Source of the DNA: Thermoanaerobacter wiegelii Rt8.B1
Lineage (GTDB): Bacteria > Bacillota > Thermoanaerobacteria > Thermoanaerobacterales > Thermoanaerobacteraceae
Direction: 5' to 3'
Assembly: GCF_000147695.2 (NCBI RefSeq)
Contig: NC_015958.1
Location: 784,501 to 848,500 of the forward strand
Length of the DNA: 64,000 nt
Positions 2,008 through 62,602 of the stretch are shown here, piece after piece. Numbering within the stretch: the stretch's first letter is position 1; the number at the start of each line of letters is the position of its first letter. Under the pieces are notes generated by a model that saw nothing but the letters and a program-made list of their open reading frames with translations, ran no database searches and was not told the DNA's origin. The position numbers and the translations under genes are program-made.

Positions 2008-2250
2008 ATGACTATACCTGCATCTCCCATCGCCAATGTTATTCCTGCTTGTTGTGTTCAGACCACTGCCCCTACCACCCAGGACTGTTTAAATCTGCAC
2101 GACAGAGCATGGAACTTGGGACGCATTCCATGGTGTCATGACAGGGATAACGTAGGGTTATCATTTCCTTGTCCTTTGGGTCAAACCCTTAGGCTGGTCA
2201 ACCGGGGCTTCTACAAGCCCCGCCTCTATAGGCGGGTGGTGGTTGACCCC
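1995..2250 (-). ncRNA. IscB-associated omega RNA (HEARO-type) candidate
   Basis: This is a GC-richer block in A+T-rich DNA, directly 5' of the IscB fragment and on its strand, where HEARO/omega RNAs lie. It folds into a clear three-way junction: an outer stem 2196-2203 with 2241-2248 (GGTCAACC/GGTTGACC), an inner hairpin 2204-2210/2215-2221 (GGGGCTT/AAGCCCC) and a second hairpin 2222-2225/2230-2233. IscB guides lie at the 5' end of the RNA, so a guide would be encoded just beyond 2250 on the minus strand. Assignment rests on position and fold; I could not run an Rfam model. Confidence 0.65.
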
Positions 2251-46590: not shown

Positions 46591-46696
46591 ATGGATAAAA
46601 AACAAGATATATGGTTAGATAAGGAAGTAAATTATGTGTAAAAAACTTGGGAAATTAAAAAGACTGTTTTATTAACAACGGTAGGAGGGGATGAAA

Positions 46697-48441
46697 ATGT
46701 TAAAAAGAATAAAAATCAATAATTTTAGATGTTTGCAAAATAATTTAGAAATAATATTCGAGGAAGATCTAACTGTAATAGTAGGAGAAAATGATTCTGG
46801 TAAAACTTCATTAGTTGATGCTATTAAAGTAGCGTTGCAGCAAAAGGAAGTTGAACCAGAGGATTTTAGCTATGGAACTGATGAAATTGAAATAGAACTG
46901 GAAATAGATGATTTTAAATATATTATAAAACATACATTAGAAGAAAATAACCAAATAAGTTCAGAAAGGTTTTTGTCTTTTTCTAAAGATAGACTTAACG
47001 AATATAAAGGAAAGATTGAAAAAGAATTTTTAGATGATAATTATTTTGAAGAATTAAAAAAATAGCTGATTTATTAGGTGTAGCATATAGATCTAATACA
47101 CGTTTTGATACGCTCAAAAATAATTTAGTTAACAAAATAGATGAATATTTATCAAATGCGGATAATCCAATTTTAGTAAATACTAGGAGTAATCCGGATT
47201 CAAATATCTATCCTCTCGACGGTAAAGATTTCCAAGAAATATCTTCTTTTATAAAAAAGCTATTTTTTGAAAAGAAGAAAAAAGAAATTTGGCATGAACC
47301 TCTTAATGAAAATGAAACAATTGAATCGCTTATAGAAAAGCAATTAAATGCTTATGAAATTGAAATAAATAAAAACGTAAACGAAGGTAATATAACTAAA
47401 AAAATTAAAGAATTTCTCCCTTCTTTAACAGAGATAGTTATTAATTCTGAATTTAAGCTACAAGATATTAATATTGATGTAAAAGTGAAATTCCTTGAAA
47501 ATGATAAAGAGATTTTAGTCGATAAAAAAGGAGATGGTACTAAACGTAGAATAACAATGGCACTACTGGATTATAAAAACGAGATAGAATCTGAGAACGA
47601 GATGGGAAATAGCATATATTTATTCGATGAACCAGATACTCATTTACATGTTAGGGCTCAAAAAGATCTAATGAACATAATTCAAAAATTTAGTAAAACA
47701 GGTAAACAAGTAATAATTACTACTCATTCACCATTTATAATAAATTCCTGTAAACCTCAACAAATAAGGTTATTAACTAATACAAATAATACAAGTACTG
47801 TAAAATTTATAAAAAAAGATAAAGAAATAGACAGGTTATTAAGAAATATTGGGATCGAAAATACATATCTCTTTTTCGCAAAAAAAATTCTTATAGTGGA
47901 GGGTGAGACTGAAGAAAAATTTATCCCAATTATATTTGAAAGATTATTTAATTCGAACTTGTATAGTAATTTAATAAAAATAATTAATGTAATTGGTATA
48001 AAAAATGTTCCAGGATTTGCACGAGCACTTTTAGAGTTAATCAATAAAGATAATATTTATATGTTAGTTGATAATGACATTCAAGAGACAACTAGTAACT
48101 TGATAACGCAATTGGACTTGGATGAGGAACATATATTTAAAATTGGAAATAAGGAATTTGAGGATTCTTTTCAAGCCAGTACAATATATAGATGTTGGAA
48201 AAAATACGTTGAAGAAAGAGATAAAAAGACGGGAAATATGTGGGATGAAAAAAATATAGAAAAATTAAAATATGAATGCATTTTAAACGGAGAAAAATTT
48301 AGCAAAAAAATTAGAGAGTTAAATAAAGGTTGCACAATTAGGTTGAATAAGATTAGTTTAGGTATTGCTTTAGGAGAATATTGTGAAGAAGACGAGTTAG
48401 ATATAAATTTAAGAGAATTATTATACAAATTAAAAAATTAA
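46697..48441 (+). pseudogene. OLD-family ATP-dependent nuclease, frameshifted
   Basis: OLD nucleases combine an ABC-type ATPase and a TOPRIM nuclease and often act in phage defence (for example GajA). Walker A VIVGENDSGKTSLVDAI is in the first frame (start ATG 46697, eight bases after AGGAGG). The second frame has Walker B IYLFDEPDTHLH, the H-loop ITTHSPFII, and TOPRIM residues ILIVEGETEEKFIPII and MLVDNDI. The frames meet at a run of seven A (47055-47061); eight A would give one protein of about 581 residues. No GajB-like helicase gene follows. Confidence 0.82.
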
Positions 48442-50636: not shown

Positions 50637-51497
50637 ATGAGGGATTTAACATATGAATTGCCATTTAGTGAAAGTGAATTTCTAAAAAGAATAATTAATG
50701 AGCTAAAACGTAGAGGAAAGCATGAGATCGCCCGTTTTCTAAAAAATGCCAAAGTTTTTGTTAAAGTTCCTGGTACTTTTTCATATTATATTGGTGGTGG
50801 GAGATGGAATGCACTTGCTGCTTATATACAAATCTATGTAAGTCCTGATAACATTGAAATTTTAAATAAAGAAACAATAAAAAATGAAATAAAATCTATA
50901 TGTGATTATGTTATTCCAGCTAACGTTGGTTATGATATTAAGGATGTTAGTTTTTATCCAGATTATTCAATAGAGCATGAGTTAAAAGAAGATTTAGTAG
51001 AAGACTTAGTTAAGACTTCAAAGAGTTTAGCAAAAGGAATAATAGAAATACTTCCTCCGGAACTTATAAATAAGGCATTAGAGATGTCCGAGGCTTATAT
51101 TTATATGTACGTTATAGAAAACACCTTACGACTTTTTATTGAAAAAATATGTATTGATAAATATGGGGAGAACTTTTTTAACTTCATCAAAAAAACAAAA
51201 GCTATCATTGATAAGGTGGAGCAACGTAAAAAAGATATAGAATCAAAGAAATGGTTAAGCTTTAATGAGAATTCAGACATATTTTATTTGGATTTTAAGG
51301 AATTAGGAGATATTATAAGAGAAAACTGGGATGATTTTAAATCTCATTTTCCAAATCAAGATTTTATTCTTCCTAAGATCAAGGAAATTGCTGACGTAAG
51401 AAATCTTATAGCTCATAATAGTTATATAGGCAGTAAAGAACGTACTATGCTTAAGTTATATTATGAAATGATACTTGAACAGATAGGTCAACTGTAG
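50637..51497 (+). CDS. Swt1-type HEPN domain protein
   Basis: 286 residues. The C-terminal half is helical and ends in ADVRNLIAHNSYIGSKERT, a HEPN-type R-x4-H motif (Arg255, His260), the active site of many RNA-cutting toxins and defence proteins. The N-terminal part (FLKNAKVFVKVPGTFSYYIG, WNALAAYIQIYVS) is beta-rich and unknown to me. ATG 50637 follows AAAGGGGGG with wide spacing. It is a lone gene between an ISLre2 copy and the flagellin, so a partner is not evident. Confidence 0.72.
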   Translation: MRDLTYELPFSESEFLKRIINELKRRGKHEIARFLKNAKVFVKVPGTFSYYIGGGRWNALAAYIQIYVSPDNIEILNKETIKNEIKSICDYVIPANVGYDIKDVSFYPDYSIEHELKEDLVEDLVKTSKSLAKGIIEILPPELINKALEMSEAYIYMYVIENTLRLFIEKICIDKYGENFFNFIKKTKAIIDKVEQRKKDIESKKWLSFNENSDIFYLDFKELGDIIRENWDDFKSHFPNQDFILPKIKEIADVRNLIAHNSYIGSKERTMLKLYYEMILEQIGQL

Positions 51498-51726
51498 ATA
51501 CTTTGTGGATGTTACCGATTTGTTAATTATTGTAAAAACCTGTAGCCATGTTCATATCCAGAAATGAAGTTTGCTTTTTTAAATGAACCTTAGATGTGAG
51601 TGTGTGTAAATTGATCTTAATTTTTCAGCCAGCTAGGTATTATTGATTATGATATGTTATATTCGCTGTTTAAAGAAACACATACTTGATCAATATTGCA
51701 ATACCATGAATTTTTTAAAATAGCAT

Positions 51727-51752
51727 TAAAAAAATTAAATAAATGACGATAA
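51727..51752 (+). promoter_or_regulatory. SigD-like (flagellar) promoter
   Basis: TAAA (51727-51730), 14 bases, then GACGATAA (51745-51752): one mismatch from the sigma-28/SigD pattern TAAA-N15-GCCGATAA. It is 38 bp before the flagellin ATG, with AGGGGTG at 51775-51781 as ribosome site. Confidence 0.6.
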
Positions 51753-51789
51753 TAAATATGGTAACTATTCTAACAGGGGTGCAATATTA

Positions 51790-53646
51790 ATGAGGGTTTC
51801 TCATAATTTGATGGTATTAAATACATTAGAGAATATCAGAAAAAATAACAAAATTACTTTAAAATCTATAGAAAAACTTTCATCCGGTCTTAGAATAAAT
51901 AAAGCTGCCGATGATGCAGCTGGCTTAAGTATTTCTGAAAAAATGAGAGCTCAAATTAGAGGGCTAAGACAGGCAGAAAGAAACGTACAAGACGGTATTT
52001 CTTTAATACAAACAGCAGATGCAGGTCTTAGTAGTATATTGGAACCACCACTTCAAAGGATGAGGGAATTAGCAATACAAGCAATGAACGACACATTAAC
52101 AGATGAAGATCGCCAAAAAATTCAGCTTGAAATAGAGCAGATGAAAAGTGCTATTGATGATATTGCAAATAATACTGAATTTAATGGCATAAAATTGCTT
52201 AATGGTAATTTAAGATCAGTAATACCCCAAATACCATTATCGATAGAGTGGGAAAAATCTTTCTCTACCGATAAACTAATAAATTCAATTATTGCTACTA
52301 ATGATGGTGGTTTCATAGTTGGTGGTGCTAGTCATAAATGGGAACCTGAGGAAAGCCGATTTTGGATTTCTAAAATTGACTCAGAAGGTAATATTGAATG
52401 GGAAATAGAACTGCCTAAACAAAATAATTATAACTATATTTATGATATAGAAAAAATCAGTGATGGAAATTTCGTTGCAACTGCTCGAAGTAATAAATAT
52501 ATAAATGGTGAATATGGAGAAAACCAGCCCATTGTATTTAAATTTGATTCATCTGGGAATATAATAAAACAATATACATTTGCAGGAACAAATTCATATT
52601 TATTAGCTATTACACAAACAATTAATGGTAACATAATTGCAACAGGTTCAGCTAACGAATTACTAATTATGAAATTTGATCAAAATTTAAACTTTATCGA
52701 AAATAGATTTTGGCAGTTTCCTAACCCAGCTGATTGTCACTTTAAAGGAGGTTATGACATAAAGCCAACAAAAGATGGTGGATTTGTAATAGTAGGATTG
52801 GAAGCATTAGAAGATGGTGGACGAAGGGGATTCATAGCAAAGTTCGATATTAATTTAAATATGGAATGGGAACAAAAAATTCAGGATGAGGAATTATCTT
52901 CAGTAGTGCAATTAGATAATGAAAATTATCTAGTCTTAGGTGAAAATGGTTTGTATAAGATAGATTCATGGGGAAACATTAATATACTTAATGATATGAT
53001 AAAGTATTGGAATACTAACACTGGTATTAAAAACGCAAATAATATATTTTTAAAATTAGATAATAACAATTATGTTGTATGTTCAAACTCTAAAGTATAC
53101 AAAATTAACAATAATGGAGACGAAATATGGAGCTTGAATTTACCTATATCAATGCCTGAAATCAAGGGGATTGCTCAAATAGATGATGGTGGGTTTGTCG
53201 TAGTAGAAAATGATTATAGCATAATAAAGTTTGCGCCTGAGAATCCAATCACAAAGAATGGTATTTTTCTTCAAATAGGTCCAAATTCGAACGAAAATTT
53301 GAACATAACTATTGAAAATTGTAGTACTCGTGGGTTAGGAATAAAAGAAATTAATGTAACAACTAGAGATATAGAAAATGCTATTTTAGCAATTGATTCG
53401 GCCATAGAAAAAGTTACATCAGAACGTTCAAAACTTGGAGCATATCAGAATGCTTTAGAACATGTATACAATAACCTACTAAACTACGAAGAAAATCTTA
53501 TGGCATCGGAAAGTAGAATTAGAGATGCTGATATAGCAAAAGAAATAATGAATTTTGTAAAGGGTAATATATTACATCATACATCACAGGTGGTTTTAGC
53601 ACAAGCAAATCAAACTCCAGAAACAGTTATTCAATTATTGAAATAG
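51790..53646 (+). CDS. Flagellin with a propeller-like insert in the variable region
   Basis: 618-residue flagellin. The N-terminal D0/D1 part (about 1-140) has LSSGLRINKAADDAAGLSIS and RNVQDGISLIQTADAGLSSI; the C-terminal D1/D0 part (about 500-618) has LGAYQNALEHVYNNLLNYEE and ESRIRDADIAKEIMNF and ends VIQLLK. Between them, about 345 residues form seven repeats of the type GGF-V-G ... KFD-GN--W (for example DGGFIVGGASH ... WISKIDSEGNIEWE). This looks like a seven-bladed beta-propeller. A SigD-like promoter precedes it. No other flagellar gene is nearby. Surface exposure on the filament is expected. Confidence 0.85.
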   Translation: MRVSHNLMVLNTLENIRKNNKITLKSIEKLSSGLRINKAADDAAGLSISEKMRAQIRGLRQAERNVQDGISLIQTADAGLSSILEPPLQRMRELAIQAMNDTLTDEDRQKIQLEIEQMKSAIDDIANNTEFNGIKLLNGNLRSVIPQIPLSIEWEKSFSTDKLINSIIATNDGGFIVGGASHKWEPEESRFWISKIDSEGNIEWEIELPKQNNYNYIYDIEKISDGNFVATARSNKYINGEYGENQPIVFKFDSSGNIIKQYTFAGTNSYLLAITQTINGNIIATGSANELLIMKFDQNLNFIENRFWQFPNPADCHFKGGYDIKPTKDGGFVIVGLEALEDGGRRGFIAKFDINLNMEWEQKIQDEELSSVVQLDNENYLVLGENGLYKIDSWGNINILNDMIKYWNTNTGIKNANNIFLKLDNNNYVVCSNSKVYKINNNGDEIWSLNLPISMPEIKGIAQIDDGGFVVVENDYSIIKFAPENPITKNGIFLQIGPNSNENLNITIENCSTRGLGIKEINVTTRDIENAILAIDSAIEKVTSERSKLGAYQNALEHVYNNLLNYEENLMASESRIRDADIAKEIMNFVKGNILHHTSQVVLAQANQTPETVIQLLK

Positions 53647-55816: not shown

Positions 55817-56300
55817 GAGAGGAAGTGCCTATAAAAGCCAAGAGGACAAAGAAAATACAATGATGAATTCAAGAATACTATAGTAGAGTTGTATAACTCT
55901 TGCAAAAGTCTAGCAGAGCTTTCAAGCGAATATGGCATCTCAAAATCCACAATATCAGGCTGGTTGAAGAAAGCAAAACCAATAAATATAGACAACAAAG
56001 GCACAACAATTACAGCAGCATAATATCAAGCTATGTTAAAGAAGATGGCAAGGCTTGAAGAGGAGAATGAAATATTAAAAAAAGCCATGGCCATATTCGC
56101 AAAGGAGTAAGCTCTATATTTGAGCTTATTGAGGAAAATAAAAATTAAATTAATGTGTAAAGTTTTAAAAGTTTCAAGGAGCTCCTATTATAAGTATCTT
56201 CATGTAGTATAGGATATATGACTCCGCAACAATTTGAGGATTTAATTAAAAAGTCAGCATAAAAATTTCGAGTTTTTGTGTCTACTATATTGACATAAAT
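55817..56300 (+). pseudogene. IS3-family remnant (orfA and start of orfB)
   Basis: An orfA-like frame has KNTIVELYNSCKSLAELSSE, YGISKSTISGWLKKAKPI (helix-turn-helix), an in-frame TAA and then MARLEEENEILKKAMAIFAKE (leucine-zipper end). Only the first residues of orfB (CKVLKVSRSSYYKYL) follow before the sequence collapses to what looks like the right end (56255-56300). The element lies immediately upstream of zorA and has probably replaced its native promoter region. Confidence 0.75.
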
Positions 56301-56331: not shown

Positions 56332-57954
56332 TTGATTTTTAAAGAAATTACACTTTTTATAATAAGATTAATCCCAGATTTTAATGATATTTTTTGCTTC
56401 GGTATTATTCTCTTAGCTGTATTTGTTTTCTTTTTAGCCCACCGAAAACCTAAACAATATACTAGACTTGTCGATTTATATATAGAAAAAATCCACAACA
56501 TACCAGATAAAGATATCTTACTAAGGGAACTGATTGAGCTGACAGATGAAATAATAGAAAAAGAGAAAAATGACAAATACATAACTGGATTACTTGAAAA
56601 GTTTAAAAACAGGTGCTATAGTGGCAATATAAAAAATGCTGTGGATGTTTTGGATTATACGGCTTTGGTTGAAATTCCTGGTAAGCGAAAGGTATTTGAC
56701 ATGATGCCAGGTGTATTTACAGGTCTTGGTATTTTAGGTACTTTTGCTGGACTTGTTTTGGGTTTAAGTGATCTTAACTTTTCGGGTAGTACTCAGGCAT
56801 TGGAGCAAGGGATAAACAACTTAATATCAGGAATGTATCTGGCTTTTCTTACATCAATAGCAGGCCTTGTTTCTTCTTTGGGATGGTCTTATTTTGACAG
56901 GAAACGGCTTCATAATTATAGAGAAAAGATCCATTCTTTTCATTCCTCGTACAAAAAAGTGTTTGCACAAGAGGAAATAGACGATTATCTCAAAGACATA
57001 AGAGAGATTCAGGAAGAGCAAAAGACATATATGCAAAAATTTGTATCCGATTTATCCCTGGAGCTTAGCAATATGTTGTCGAATATACTGGAACAAAGGA
57101 TATTCCCTGAGTTCGCCAATATTATAAATCAACAGGTTACATCTAAGATCGTGGAATCCTTTGACAATACGATTGGAGAGATTAGGCAGTCCACTGAGAG
57201 CTCAAAACAGATGATTGAGAGATTTGCTAATCTGGCATACGATAACCAGTTAGAAGGAGTTCAAAGAATTGTTAATAAGTTTATAGAAAGTATGGATCTG
57301 TCATTAAAAGGGAAATTTGCGGATTTGGGCGAGTCCATTGGCGAGATGATAAAGTGGCAGCAAATGGTTAAAGAAGGTATGAATGAACTTATAGAAAAAT
57401 TGTCGAATAACATACTGAATTTACAGGATGTTAATAAAGCTATTGAAAACACAATTATAAATTTCTCTGATTACTTTGATAATGTCAATGCGGCTAATAA
57501 CCATCTGGTTGAGAATATATCAAAGTTAGAATCCGTCTCTTTAAACATAAATGGACTTATTGAAGACATGTCAAAAATGATAAAAGATATCAACGAGCAA
57601 AAGGATTTATTGTTAAAAGATAAGACAGAACATATTCAAATAATATCTAGATACATATTGGAGATCAACGAAAAATTCAGCTTGCTTGAAAAGAGTTATG
57701 CCAATATAAGTAAGGATATTGATATCTTAAACAACAGCCTCAAACAATCTATGGAAGAGTTTGCTAATAAAACTCATGAAGGGCTTAAGCGGAGCTTATC
57801 TTTATTTGATGAAGAGCTTGCCAGCATAACAAGCTATCTAAATTCGACATTAAGCGAAATTGAAGAAGCTGTAGATGAATTACCGAAGGTGATTATTGAA
57901 TTTAAGAATACCTTGAGAAGCGAAGAGAAGGAGATGCAGACCATTGAAGGATGA
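56332..57954 (+). CDS. zorA: Zorya anti-phage protein ZorA (MotA/TolQ/ExbB-like)
   Basis: Stator-type membrane subunit (540 aa) of the Zorya motor, which forms a proton channel with ZorB and passes the infection signal to cytoplasmic effectors. The first helix is at about 20-38 (FCFGIILLAVFVFFLAH). The conserved MotA/ExbB core is MMPGVFTGLGILGTFAGLVLGL and GMYLAFLTSIAGLVSSLGWS (about 125-188). The remaining 350 residues form a long coiled-coil tail, as in known ZorA. TTG 56332 is used, eight bases after AAGGGG. It overlaps zorB by 11 bp. Confidence 0.92.
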   Translation: MIFKEITLFIIRLIPDFNDIFCFGIILLAVFVFFLAHRKPKQYTRLVDLYIEKIHNIPDKDILLRELIELTDEIIEKEKNDKYITGLLEKFKNRCYSGNIKNAVDVLDYTALVEIPGKRKVFDMMPGVFTGLGILGTFAGLVLGLSDLNFSGSTQALEQGINNLISGMYLAFLTSIAGLVSSLGWSYFDRKRLHNYREKIHSFHSSYKKVFAQEEIDDYLKDIREIQEEQKTYMQKFVSDLSLELSNMLSNILEQRIFPEFANIINQQVTSKIVESFDNTIGEIRQSTESSKQMIERFANLAYDNQLEGVQRIVNKFIESMDLSLKGKFADLGESIGEMIKWQQMVKEGMNELIEKLSNNILNLQDVNKAIENTIINFSDYFDNVNAANNHLVENISKLESVSLNINGLIEDMSKMIKDINEQKDLLLKDKTEHIQIISRYILEINEKFSLLEKSYANISKDIDILNNSLKQSMEEFANKTHEGLKRSLSLFDEELASITSYLNSTLSEIEEAVDELPKVIIEFKNTLRSEEKEMQTIEG

Positions 57955-58636
57955 GAACAAAGTACACGATTACTGGCAGTCTTATTCAGATTTGATGGCT
58001 GCATTGCTTTTGATGTTTGCCCTTTTAATTGTCATTATGATTTATAAATATGCCGCCATTGCTGCTGAACTCAGTTTGCAGAAGGCAAAGGTTGATGACT
58101 TAATTGGCGTGAGGGCTCGTATAATAGATCAGCTTTTAAAGGAGTTTAGCAATTCAGATATGACGCTTAACATAGATCCTCAAACGGGAGCTATAAGCTT
58201 TAGCGAAGGTGTATTCTTTGATAAGGATAAGTTTGAGTTAAAAGAGGAAGGCAAAAGGTATTTAAATGAATTTATCCCCAGGTACTTATCGATACTCATG
58301 GATCCTCGGTTTAAAAAGTACATATCACAGATAATTGTAGAGGGCCATACCGATGATACTGGTGATTATATGTACAATCTGGAGCTCTCTCAGAAGAGGG
58401 CGTTTGAGGTTGTCAGATATATATTGCAATCTAATATAAAAGGCATTGATTCTAAAACAAAAGCAGATTTGATGTCATATATAACGGCCAATGGCCGTTC
58501 GTACAGCCAGCTGATCATTGAAAACGGGAAAGTAAACAGGCAGAAATCCAGAAGGGTAGAATTTAAATTTCGCTTAAAAGAAGAGGAAATGATAATGGAG
58601 ATGCAAAAAATCCTCAGGAAGGGATCTGTAAAGTGA
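57944..58636 (+). CDS. zorB: Zorya protein ZorB (MotB-like)
   Basis: 230-residue partner of ZorA. One membrane helix near the N-terminus with the ion-binding acidic residue (Asp16 in SYSDLMAALLLMFALL), then an OmpA-like peptidoglycan-binding domain: FFDKDKFELKEEGKRYL and VEGHTDDTGDYMYNLELSQKRA (about 132-153), with NRQKSRRVEFKF near the end. Start is TTG 57944 with AAGGAG nine bases upstream. It overlaps zorC by four bases. Confidence 0.92.
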   Translation: MKDENKVHDYWQSYSDLMAALLLMFALLIVIMIYKYAAIAAELSLQKAKVDDLIGVRARIIDQLLKEFSNSDMTLNIDPQTGAISFSEGVFFDKDKFELKEEGKRYLNEFIPRYLSILMDPRFKKYISQIIVEGHTDDTGDYMYNLELSQKRAFEVVRYILQSNIKGIDSKTKADLMSYITANGRSYSQLIIENGKVNRQKSRRVEFKFRLKEEEMIMEMQKILRKGSVK

Positions 58637-59811
58637 GCACACGTGAATTCGTATATATTCCTCATAAATTGCTTGAAATTAAAAATCGTATAATATCGAA
58701 TAGTTCAAATAAGGCAATAACTTTTGAAAAAAATAATGATGAAGAAGAAAGGCTCATGTTGCTGCAAAAAATAGTTAAGACGCCATTTAAAGATATTCGC
58801 GATCTGGCGTTTTCGCTAAAAAATAGTGAATTGTACCTGTTGATTCATTATTTTGCTGCTGCTGATTTTAACATCGATCCCAACAAGATTTATGAAATTA
58901 TAAGATTGAGGTTTAAAAAGAAATTCGCCGCTTTGCTCTGGGAACAGTATCAGAATAATTATTACAATAAGATGTATGTGTATTATTTTACGAAATTTTG
59001 CAATGAATTTAAAGAAGTTTTTGTAGAGCTGTTTAAAGATGAAAAAATATTGCAGTTTATTAAAGTAATGATAGTTAATGATGACGTAATTAAGTCTATT
59101 TGTGTTCACATAAGTAAAACTAAACTAAATATAGATAAATTTTTTAATACCTTAAAAATTAGTGAAAAATCAAAATTGGGAATGAACATAAAAAAATATT
59201 TTTATCTTTATTGCGATAAAGAAACTTATATGAGCAGCGATCCGAAAGTAATTTTAAATGCGGTAAAAATGTACAATCAGAATGAATTGTTGAGGTTTAT
59301 TGAAAATTATGTGGGTAATATACCATTTTCTGAGCTTAACTATGATATAATGGAATATATATTAGAAAGCAAAAACATACCTGAAAGTAGGGAAAAAGAC
59401 TTCTTCTGGAAAGATGTCTCTGAGCCGGTATGGAGCAAGTGCAGAAAATGGTTTTTAGATAATTTGATGAAAAAGCATCTTGATAGGCGAAGGTATAATT
59501 TCTGGACAAAATATATTGATTATATTAAGAACTTTGTTGTGGTTAAAAAGAATAACCGCAATCAAATAATTTATTTTATATATTTCGATAAATTTGTAGT
59601 AGTTGAATTCGAACCCATTGGTGCCGCCTATATATATAAAACAGACGTATTTAAGCGCCGATTTGGCGCGTTTGCCAGTGAAGACAGTTCTAAAAGTGAT
59701 AGCTTTTTTAAAGATGAGAGCATTGCTATTACTAGGATAATACACGGAGGAAGATGGGAATTCAGAGCTTATAATACTGTACGACAGCTGCTGAAGGGTG
59801 ATTGGAATTGA
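58633..59811 (+). CDS. zorC: Zorya protein ZorC (EH-signature type)
   Basis: 392-residue soluble protein in the ZorC position. Its C-terminal part contains conserved-looking Glu and His positions (VVEFEPIGAAYIYK and ITRIIHGGRWEF), matching the EH-signature domain that defines ZorC; the N-terminal 300 residues are helical. It is shorter than the E. coli protein (about 560 residues as I recall). GTG 58633 is the start, AGGAAGGGA upstream. It overlaps zorB and zorD by four and ten bases. Confidence 0.82.
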   Translation: MSTREFVYIPHKLLEIKNRIISNSSNKAITFEKNNDEEERLMLLQKIVKTPFKDIRDLAFSLKNSELYLLIHYFAAADFNIDPNKIYEIIRLRFKKKFAALLWEQYQNNYYNKMYVYYFTKFCNEFKEVFVELFKDEKILQFIKVMIVNDDVIKSICVHISKTKLNIDKFFNTLKISEKSKLGMNIKKYFYLYCDKETYMSSDPKVILNAVKMYNQNELLRFIENYVGNIPFSELNYDIMEYILESKNIPESREKDFFWKDVSEPVWSKCRKWFLDNLMKKHLDRRRYNFWTKYIDYIKNFVVVKKNNRNQIIYFIYFDKFVVVEFEPIGAAYIYKTDVFKRRFGAFASEDSSKSDSFFKDESIAITRIIHGGRWEFRAYNTVRQLLKGDWN

Positions 59812-62602
59812 TAAAGATTTCAAAAGACTTATCAGATAGGGGTATTAAAATTGCTTGTCATGTTTTAAAAAAGAGAAAGCCTGTTGAAATAAAAATACCG
59901 CTTTTTTTAAACCCAGTAGAATGGCTAAAGGATATCTTGCCTGATGAAATGGAGGCATTAAATGTACTTGAAGGCTTGTGGCAGGAAGGTATTTTGCAGG
60001 AAGAAAACAATTTTTATGTGATACCTTATGAATTTTTATACAATATCGCTGAAGATCAGAGGTGTATACTTTGCCTTCCTGTTGAAGATAATTCGATAAA
60101 AGTCCATATAAAAGCGAAAGGAATCCTTGGCAGTAGTGATTTTGCGTTGATACCTGACATATACATAAAAGATGAGAAGATGGGGCCTCTGGATAGAAGA
60201 ATTAAAAATGTAGTGTCCCACAACGGCAGCCTTTATTTAATACCATTAAATCTTTACAGCCTTTTAAATGAAATAGATGCGTATAAGCCCACTGCTGACC
60301 CTCTATTGCAGGCGAAGATTATCGCAAAAGTTAAATATAAAGCTAAGTCGGCTAATGTGACTTTTGATAAATTTTTGGAAAGCGAAGAAGTGTACTATTC
60401 TGAAAAACTGGATGTGGATATAGTTAAGCACAGCGACGATCATATCCAAATTGTACCGGTTTTAGGCAATGAAATTGATAGTTTATTAAAAGATAGCAAA
60501 GATAAGGTCTTAAAACAGCATAATACTTTGTATGGTGAAGGTATAAAGAGGAAAAGAATTTTTTTGGAAGATAGAGTCGTACAAAATTATAATAAAATTC
60601 TTAGACAGGGGCATCTTAAAGGGACTCAGATACCCAGGTTTTTGACCGACCCATATTCTATTTTACCTGAAAATATAGATTTGTCTAATTTCAGTAAAAG
60701 GGTAAAAGAACTCGGACTTAAGGTCTATAGGGCTAATCCGTATATTAATATAAAAAGAGATAAAAATTCCGGGTGGTTTGATTTTGAGATAGGTGGGATC
60801 ATACATGAAGATACCGGTTTTGGTCTTGATGAAGATGGTGATTATACACGGAAAAACGAACTGAAAGATAATGCTAAGATCGATGTGGAGGAGTATAGGC
60901 ACCTGGTTCAAAAAGCTGTTGAGAGCGGAGAAGATTATGTAAATTATAAAGGCAACTGGATAAAAATTGATAGAGAGCAGGCTAGCAGATTTTTAAATAT
61001 AGTTGATAATGAGCAATTCAGGAAAACACAGAGGATAGATATTACACGATTGCCTTATGTTTTGAAAATATATGAAAACATAGAGAATCTGGAGTATAAC
61101 GAAACGGCGTTAAGCTTGAAAAAACAGCTTACAGGTAATTTTAGCATAAGCGACTTTAGATATCCTATGTATTTAAAAAATTGCCAGCTGTACGAGCATC
61201 AAAAGGAAGGATTTTTATGGTTTAAGGGCCTGTACGAAAATCACATGGGTGGGCTGCTCGCTGATGATATGGGTTTGGGAAAAACTTTACAGATAATTAG
61301 TTTCTTGTGTTATCTAAAAGAATGTAATGAAATTAAACCTACGCTAATCATAGCTCCATATACTTTGTTAGATGTATGGGAGAGCGAAATACGTAAGTTC
61401 TCTGAAATTACTTCTGTATATAGGCATACAGGTTACAAAAGGTATAAAACACCCGAGCTTCTTAAAAATTATGAAATCACGTTGACCACTTACGAGACGC
61501 TTGTTAGAGATCAATTGCTGTTAGGGCAAATAGATTGGCAGGCAGTTGTTTGCGATGAGGCACAGAAAATAAAAAACAGCACAACTTTGACTACATCGGC
61601 TGTTAAGGCCTTAAAAGCCAGAATCAAGATAGCTATGACCGGGACTCCTGTGGAAAACAATCTAGGTGAGCTATGGTGTATAATAGATTATGTGCAACCT
61701 GGTCTTTTATCTAGTTATCATGAGTTTAGAAAGACGTATCAAATACCTATAGAGGATGCTATAAGCAATAGAAGTGAAGCATACGTAGAAGTAAAGAACA
61801 AACTATTGAACACGATAAGACCTGTGTACCTGAGGAGAGTAAAAGATGGCATTTTATCACTTCCTGCAAAGAACGAGTTTTTTTAGAAGTAGAACTTACA
61901 GCATTGCAAGAAAAAGTCTATTGTCAATTGATAGAAGATTATAAAAATAAGGGGAAAAGTGAATCACCCCTTGGTGTATTGCAAAAGTTGATGGAATTGT
62001 GCGCCCATCCACGCCTTGTACGAGATGAAGGTGAAGTGAATACCTTTCAACTTTTAAGTGAGTCAGGGAAACTTCAACGCCTTATAGAACTTTTAAATGA
62101 GATAAAGCGTAGAGGTGAAAAGGCGGTTATATTTACCCATTATATAAAAATGCAGGCGATATTGAGAAAAGTCATCATGGATGTTTTTGGCATAAATTGT
62201 CCTGTGATAAATGGCAACATTAAAGGCGACAGGATGAGCATTATTGACAGGTTCAAAGAATCTTCCGGCTTTGGCGTTATTATTCTCTCTACAAGAGCTG
62301 CTGGCGTGGGTGTTACCATAACTGAAGCCAATAATGTGATTCATTATACAAGGGATTGGAATCCAGCTGTTGAAAAGCAGGCTACAGATAGGGTTTATCG
62401 AATAGGACAGACCCGCGAAGTAAATATATATTACCCTATATGCATAAGCAGCAGAGGAAAAACAGTGGAAGAGCGTTTAAATGAGGTATTACAGAAAAAG
62501 CTTCAGCTTCTTAACGAAGTGATTGTACCATCGAGATGTTTGAGCATAACAGAAGAAAATTATGACTATTTATTGCAGGATTTTTCCGATTGGTCCGCAT
62601 GA
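59802..62602 (+). pseudogene. zorD: Zorya helicase/nuclease ZorD, frameshifted
   Basis: SNF2-type helicase effector of type I Zorya. The N-terminal 470 residues are the family-specific region. Helicase motifs follow: LLADDMGLGKTLQII (Walker A), VVCDEAQKIKN (DEAQ box) and AMTGTPVENNLGELW in frame 1; VIFTHYIKM, ILSTRAAGVGVTITEANNVI and DRVYRIGQTREVN in frame 2. The frames meet at a run of seven T (61878-61884); eight T would restore NEFFLEVELTALQEK and one protein of about 933 residues. TTG 59802 is the start. Without the C-terminal RecA lobe the system should be dead, unless slippage or a sequencing error is involved. Confidence 0.88.

Follow-up and report, generated by a model that had tools for sequence, protein, structure and literature searches.

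A probably transferred flagellin with a predicted seven-bladed propeller as outer domain in Thermoanaerobacter wiegelii

Introduction

Flagellinolysin (FlaMP), a flagellin that bears a metallopeptidase, is a characterised natural case of a domain-swapped flagellin (PMC5595980). Elaborate outer domains are also known from the flagellins of Escherichia coli O157:H7 and enteropathogenic E. coli (EPEC), which, as far as they are described in PMC8931119, resemble the protein reported here in combining conserved D0/D1 parts with a variable outer domain displayed on the filament. A propeller as the outer domain was not found among published flagellins, in a partial coverage of the literature that leaves a prior description possible. 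Here, a flagellin gene at positions 51790-53646 (plus strand) in a 64,000-nucleotide stretch of the Thermoanaerobacter wiegelii Rt8.B1 genome (NC_015958.1, positions 784,501 to 848,500; the window below) is described. On the basis of domain matches and a structural model, its product almost certainly combines two flagellin ends with a seven-bladed beta-propeller as outer domain, and the gene very probably entered the present genome as a whole by horizontal transfer, as judged from sequence comparison.

Architecture and predicted fold

The open reading frame (ORF) starts with an ATG at 51790, ends with a stop codon at 53644-53646 and encodes 618 residues without internal stops. Matches to Flagellin_N (PF00669, residues 3-140, E 1e-44) and Flagellin_C (PF00700, residues 534-617, E 2e-23) in Pfam were both far above the cut-off, and with two conserved ends joined by a variable region the protein has the make-up of a flagellin (FliC/Hag). 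The core filament motifs LSSGLRIN, ADDAAG, SRIRDAD and VLAQANQ are retained. The N-terminal D0/D1 part (residues 1-142, 52215 being its last base from the start at 51790) carries an extra-residue signature, ILEPPLQRMREL, in D1, and the C-terminal D1/D0 part comprises residues 488-618 (53251-53643). Between the ends lie about 342 residues (146-487) of repetitive sequence, with K[IF][DN]-type motifs at residues 195, 251, 295, 351, 390 and 438, most of them preceded by DGG/DGN-type strands. An earlier reading of this DNA from its letters alone (the sequence-only reading) had claimed intact flagellin ends and tandem repeats in the middle, and the domain matches and the located motifs bear out both. 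The only Pfam match in the middle was a weak one to arylsulfotransferase (PF05935, E 4e-7, residues 196-290), lying over repeat strands.

In place of the variable region, residues 146-487 (52225-53250) are predicted to form a seven-bladed beta-propeller. AlphaFold2 was run on residues 143-494 with a 28-row alignment that included 27 distant propeller sequences and whose blade register was checked. The resulting model reached a predicted local distance difference test score (pLDDT) of 85.9 and a predicted template modelling score (pTM) of 0.86, and it contains 27 strands and an N-terminal closing strand, thus seven four-stranded blades. Blade 1 covers residues 162-207 (52273-52410), blade 2 residues 213-263 (52426-52578), blade 3 residues 270-308 (52597-52713), blade 4 residues 320-365 (52747-52884), blade 5 residues 369-401 (52894-52992) and blade 6 residues 419-450 (53044-53139). 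Blade 7 contributes three strands of its own (residues 458-481, 53161-53232) and is completed by the closing ('velcro') strand of residues 152-157 (52243-52260), which forms its outer strand. That the first and last blades exchange a strand and so close the ring is indicated by this strand order and by superposition over the whole length on closed rings. Both ends of the propeller lie on the closing blade in the model, as is required of a domain inserted in a loop. The alignment of distant propellers could have biased the model towards a propeller; however, the strand pattern was already there without an alignment, when the model was too poor for use (pLDDT 47) yet placed 27 strands where expected.

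Foldseek found 689 solved chains at E <= 0.001 with the propeller model. In VIA-align, superposition on the propeller domain of CylK gave a Z of 36 and a root-mean-square deviation of 2.8 over 318 residues, and Z was 30-32 for virginiamycin B lyase, YncE, PRL1, RACK1 and a designed seven-blade protein, so that the predicted fold matches many seven-bladed propellers (Z 30-36) far beyond chance. CylK, virginiamycin B lyase and YncE share the fold and the ring closure with the modelled domain (Z 31-36), but are only 10-18% identical to it, and their active sites are not recognisable in it. The closed seven-blade ring that the sequence-only reading expected from structure prediction is therefore present in the model, and the outcome set beforehand as refuting it, a fold without four-strand blades, was not obtained.

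Propeller flagellins in other Bacillota

Relatives were sought with the whole protein in 398 genomes of the phylum Bacillota and in further family-level and class-level searches. In total, about 1,100 genomes of this one phylum were sampled in overlapping draws, and rates derived from them are rough. The first search identified two full-length propeller flagellins, one in G041 (43% identity over residues 14-614) and one in G058 (41% identity over residues 1-618). A third, in G607 from the same family as G058, is 96% identical to that of G058 over the queried region. A giant flagellin is encoded in G347 by a 1497-residue ORF (L181:9870-14360) with intact flagellin ends and propeller-type repeats across most of the middle; it adjoins fliS and glycosyltransferase-like genes in a flagellar locus. 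The class search added G980, where the ORF (L202:8827-10518, minus strand) is interrupted by a TAA codon, the propeller is of another type with blades resembling PQQ_2 repeats, and transposase-like ORFs lie nearby. Propeller flagellins are rare, being found in six of the approximately 1,100 genomes with the window's own included, or about one per 150-200 genomes. The sequence-only reading knew of no other propeller flagellin of this kind, which has to be corrected, propeller flagellins being present in these five further genomes. The full-length homologues with the same order of parts also rule out a chimeric assembly artefact, which that reading had named as refuting.

Comparison among these relatives points to selection on the propeller. 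The ratio of nonsynonymous to synonymous substitution rates (dN/dS) between G058 and G607 was 0.13 for the N-terminal part, 0.14 for the propeller and 0.15 for the C-terminal part, and the equal value in propeller and ends indicates that the propeller is kept by purifying selection in this pair of related species. Between the window protein and that of G041, the best-conserved 25 residues of the entire protein were found not in D0/D1 but in the propeller, at residues 380-404 (52927-53001), where 19 of 25 are identical; this suggests a candidate working surface formed by blade 5 and the loop that follows it.

The propellers of the window protein and G041 are homologous blade by blade (34-38% identity, E 3e-53), whereas that of G058 is a more ordinary propeller with 27% identity to the window's. 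From this difference, the propeller cargo has probably been acquired or exchanged more than once. A scan of genome contigs with the window propeller alone retrieved no relative. With a three-row propeller alignment, the scan yielded 80 loci of stand-alone propeller proteins, and no flagellin was among them when tested with hidden Markov models built on the two ends of the window protein. Viral, phage and plasmid collections held weak relatives only. The nearest sequence relatives of the propeller are stand-alone proteins, many with signal-peptide-like starts. These PQQ/YncE-like proteins from Bacillota, Bacteroidota and others (L076-L155; for example, L111 from Clostridium puniceum) are 20-32% identical to the window propeller and have its blade type, a DGG strand and K-[IFL]-D-x-x-G-N-x-x-W, but in contrast to the window protein they are not flagellins.

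Origin of the gene

The genome is a single contig of 2,785,056 bases. Its native flagellin is a 273-codon open frame beside an FlgL-like gene, about 250 kb from the window gene, and is short and almost without an outer domain. The genus was represented by ten genomes, including a second one from this species, and the window gene was the sole propeller flagellin in them. With this distance and its absence from the nine congeners, the gene is an orphan, as the sequence-only reading had stated. In a tree of D0/D1 alone it clusters with G058 and G607 and falls apart from the native lineage and every other flagellin of its genus. A D0/D1 tree enlarged by more stray flagellins separated canonical flagellins from a stray set at well-supported splits of 97/91 and 100/96, the stray set comprising the window gene, G058, G607, G980, G840, G329 and G234. 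In most of its members the D1 helix is longer by one residue and has a proline before LQR, reading LEPPLQR in the window protein, DPNLLR in G058, DPHLQR in G840, NPQLQR in G329 and DPPLQR in G980, where canonical flagellins read HSILQR. On this basis the present analysis defined a group of stray flagellins, marked by [DEN]PxLxR in D1, to which the window protein belongs; it is not a published family. G840 is 72% identical to the window protein in the N-terminal part, and both G840 and G329 carry other outer domains.

Since the D0/D1 ends group with the stray flagellins, the gene most likely came in as a complete flagellin from a lineage in which varied outer domains are tolerated. A single origin of all propeller flagellins was allowed by the first D0/D1 tree and was given up when the addition of L200 and L049 broke the group; with the group split in this way, independent gains or swaps are equally likely. 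The stray flagellins L049 and L052 share one large outer domain, and L200 has another kind. A wider proposal would be that Bacillota share mobile stray flagellins, recognisable by the proline-containing extra residue in D1, that move as single genes, copolymerise in the recipient's filament and carry exchangeable globular outer domains, with propellers as one cargo gained repeatedly and the filament as a multivalent, swappable binding fibre. We regard this proposal as speculative and, on balance, doubtful.

The native flagellin is itself interrupted. A group I intron (RF00028) lies near its 3' end in this genome (L183:10428-11640, ~C1:587428) and in a relative of the same species (L184:9546-11180), and the missing end of the native flagellin, AQANQLPQTVLQLLR, sits immediately after the intron. 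Flagellins bearing introns are known from thermophilic Bacillus and Geobacillus (PMC3984707). Pieces of a group II intron (L183:11748-12322) are located directly downstream of the intron-bearing gene.

Promoter and genomic neighbourhood

A plausible SigD-like promoter, TAAA-N14-GACGATAA with 11 of 12 consensus bases, was located at 51727-51752 (plus strand) and ends 37 nucleotides before the ATG. A Shine-Dalgarno-like AGGGGTG was read from the sequence at 51775-51781. G058 and G607 have TAAA-N16-TCCGATAT upstream of their propeller flagellins in nearly the same place. The sequence-only reading had taken a SigD-like promoter as an argument that the gene is used; the match does exist, but its bearing on use is suggestive only, as a match of 11 of 12 consensus bases also occurs in about 1% of 250-base segments drawn at random from the window.

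The gene is flanked by decayed remnants of insertion sequences (IS), assigned to IS3 from motifs without a family search: an orfA remnant at 51621-51667 (minus strand), which forms the left arm of the inverted repeat I1, and an orfA/orfB remnant at 55826-56212 (plus strand), which holds the right arm at 55925-55971. A UPF0236 transposase adjoins the region. Directly upstream of the flagellin lies a candidate defence gene with HEPN_Swt1 and PDC-M34B (50637-51497), preceded by an OLD/GajA-like ATPase-Toprim gene (46691-48441) that is split in at least two ORFs (46691-47065 and 47485-48441) and is probably a pseudogene. A type I Zorya system occupies 56332-62602, with ZorA at 56332-57954, ZorB at 57944-58636, ZorC at 58633-59811 and ZorD from 59802. 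The ZorD frame ends at 61886; an ORF from 61904 seems to hold the rest, so that the gene may be broken. These neighbours agree with the defence-rich island described by the sequence-only reading. The MotA/MotB-like genes downstream were considered as flagellar stators and rejected, being ZorA and ZorB of the Zorya system. Elsewhere in the window, a HEARO RNA (RF02033), an HNH endonuclease-associated RNA element, was found at 2018-2247 (minus strand).

Possible function and alternative explanations

By established flagellar biology, the product would leave the cell in unfolded form by way of the flagellar type III apparatus, its D0/D1 ends would polymerise, either by themselves or together with the short native flagellin, and the propeller would fold on the outside of the filament. 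There, in many copies, it might bind a glycan, a surface or a matrix in the manner of a lectin or adhesin. By a rough geometric estimate, each subunit has about 50 x 50 angstrom of the lattice at a radius of about 85-90 angstrom, just enough for a propeller about 45 angstrom wide, and a filament of pure propeller flagellin is therefore conceivable. Ligand binding as the job of the propeller is put forward tentatively, with slightly less than an even chance of being right; plant or bacterial glycans would be a first guess, given a saccharolytic thermophile. At some stage of the life cycle the protein is likely to be expressed and built into filaments. The reading as a whole, that of an assembly-competent flagellin transferred as a whole gene whose surface propeller acts as a many-copy binding module, may be right or wrong with about equal chance.

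Several observations weigh against it. No window-type gene is present in the nine congeners, and the gene stands in an orphan position. The copy in G980 is broken by a stop, from which it follows that propeller flagellin genes can decay. The SigD-like pattern is not enriched genome-wide, with 15 matches against 30 in a reversed control, and together with the frequency in random stretches this makes the promoter evidence moderate only. The confident model spans the propeller (residues 143-494), the junction with D1 lying outside it, and no ligand pocket was identified in the propeller. The remnants on both sides, the adjoining transposase, the broken neighbours (the OLD fragments and ZorD cut at 61886) and the absence from congeners would fit an unused passenger, a gene that came along with a mobile segment flanked by IS and that this host either does not express or does not build into filaments. 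This is improbable, however, since the 618-codon frame is unbroken and neither flagellin end is damaged, the core filament motifs are retained, and a SigD-like promoter and a ribosome-binding site are in place.

If the flagellin is assembled, its propeller might still be a passive outer domain that alters the surface, stiffness, antigenicity or phage receptor of the filament without a ligand of its own. The setting among phage-defence genes and the sister flagellins L200, L049 and L052, with their similar ends and widely differing outer domains, are in line with such a role. A diversifying surface should look looser than the propeller of G058 and G607 does at its dN/dS, and between distant genomes the 25-residue propeller stretch is more conserved than the filament core, which makes a passive domain unlikely. 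A catalytic role as a lyase- or sulfotransferase-type domain, by analogy with flagellinolysin, may be thought of because enzymatic flagellins exist (PMC5595980), because the top structural neighbours include the enzymes CylK and virginiamycin B lyase, and because of the weak arylsulfotransferase match. Propeller folds recur across unrelated functions, however, and the match covers nothing but repeat strands, 95 residues rather than the full length. Arylsulfotransferases depend on a set of catalytic histidines; in the insert, histidine occurs only at residues 182 and 317, and that set is not there. An enzymatic flagellin is therefore very improbable. The insert also has only two cysteines and a net charge of -19, and this acidity, the near lack of histidine and cysteine and the stand-alone relatives point to a binding module more than to an enzyme.

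Significance and comparison with known flagellins

If the protein is assembled, each filament would display thousands of ring-shaped, putatively binding modules, turning the flagellum into a multivalent adhesive fibre. Natural outer-domain swaps are few, and the propeller flagellins extend them past the metallopeptidase case; the acquisition of a foreign flagellin gene together with new surface cargo as a whole is indicated. They also offer naturally evolved scaffolds for display on filaments, one of them from a likely thermophile, and make it possible to test directly whether such swaps act in adhesion, in binding to a matrix or in escape from phages.

The nearest known kind for the window gene is the domain-swapped flagellin. 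As in flagellinolysin, a foreign folded domain sits in the hypervariable region of a flagellin with a patchy distribution, and whole-gene lateral transfer, proposed for flagellinolysin (PMC5595980), is indicated here as well. No HExxH occurs in the sequence, and NF033876 stayed far below its cut-off on the window protein, with the best stretch (486-549) corresponding to the flagellin end. In contrast to the metallopeptidase of flagellinolysin, the insert of the window flagellin is thus a predicted seven-bladed propeller with no evident catalytic site.
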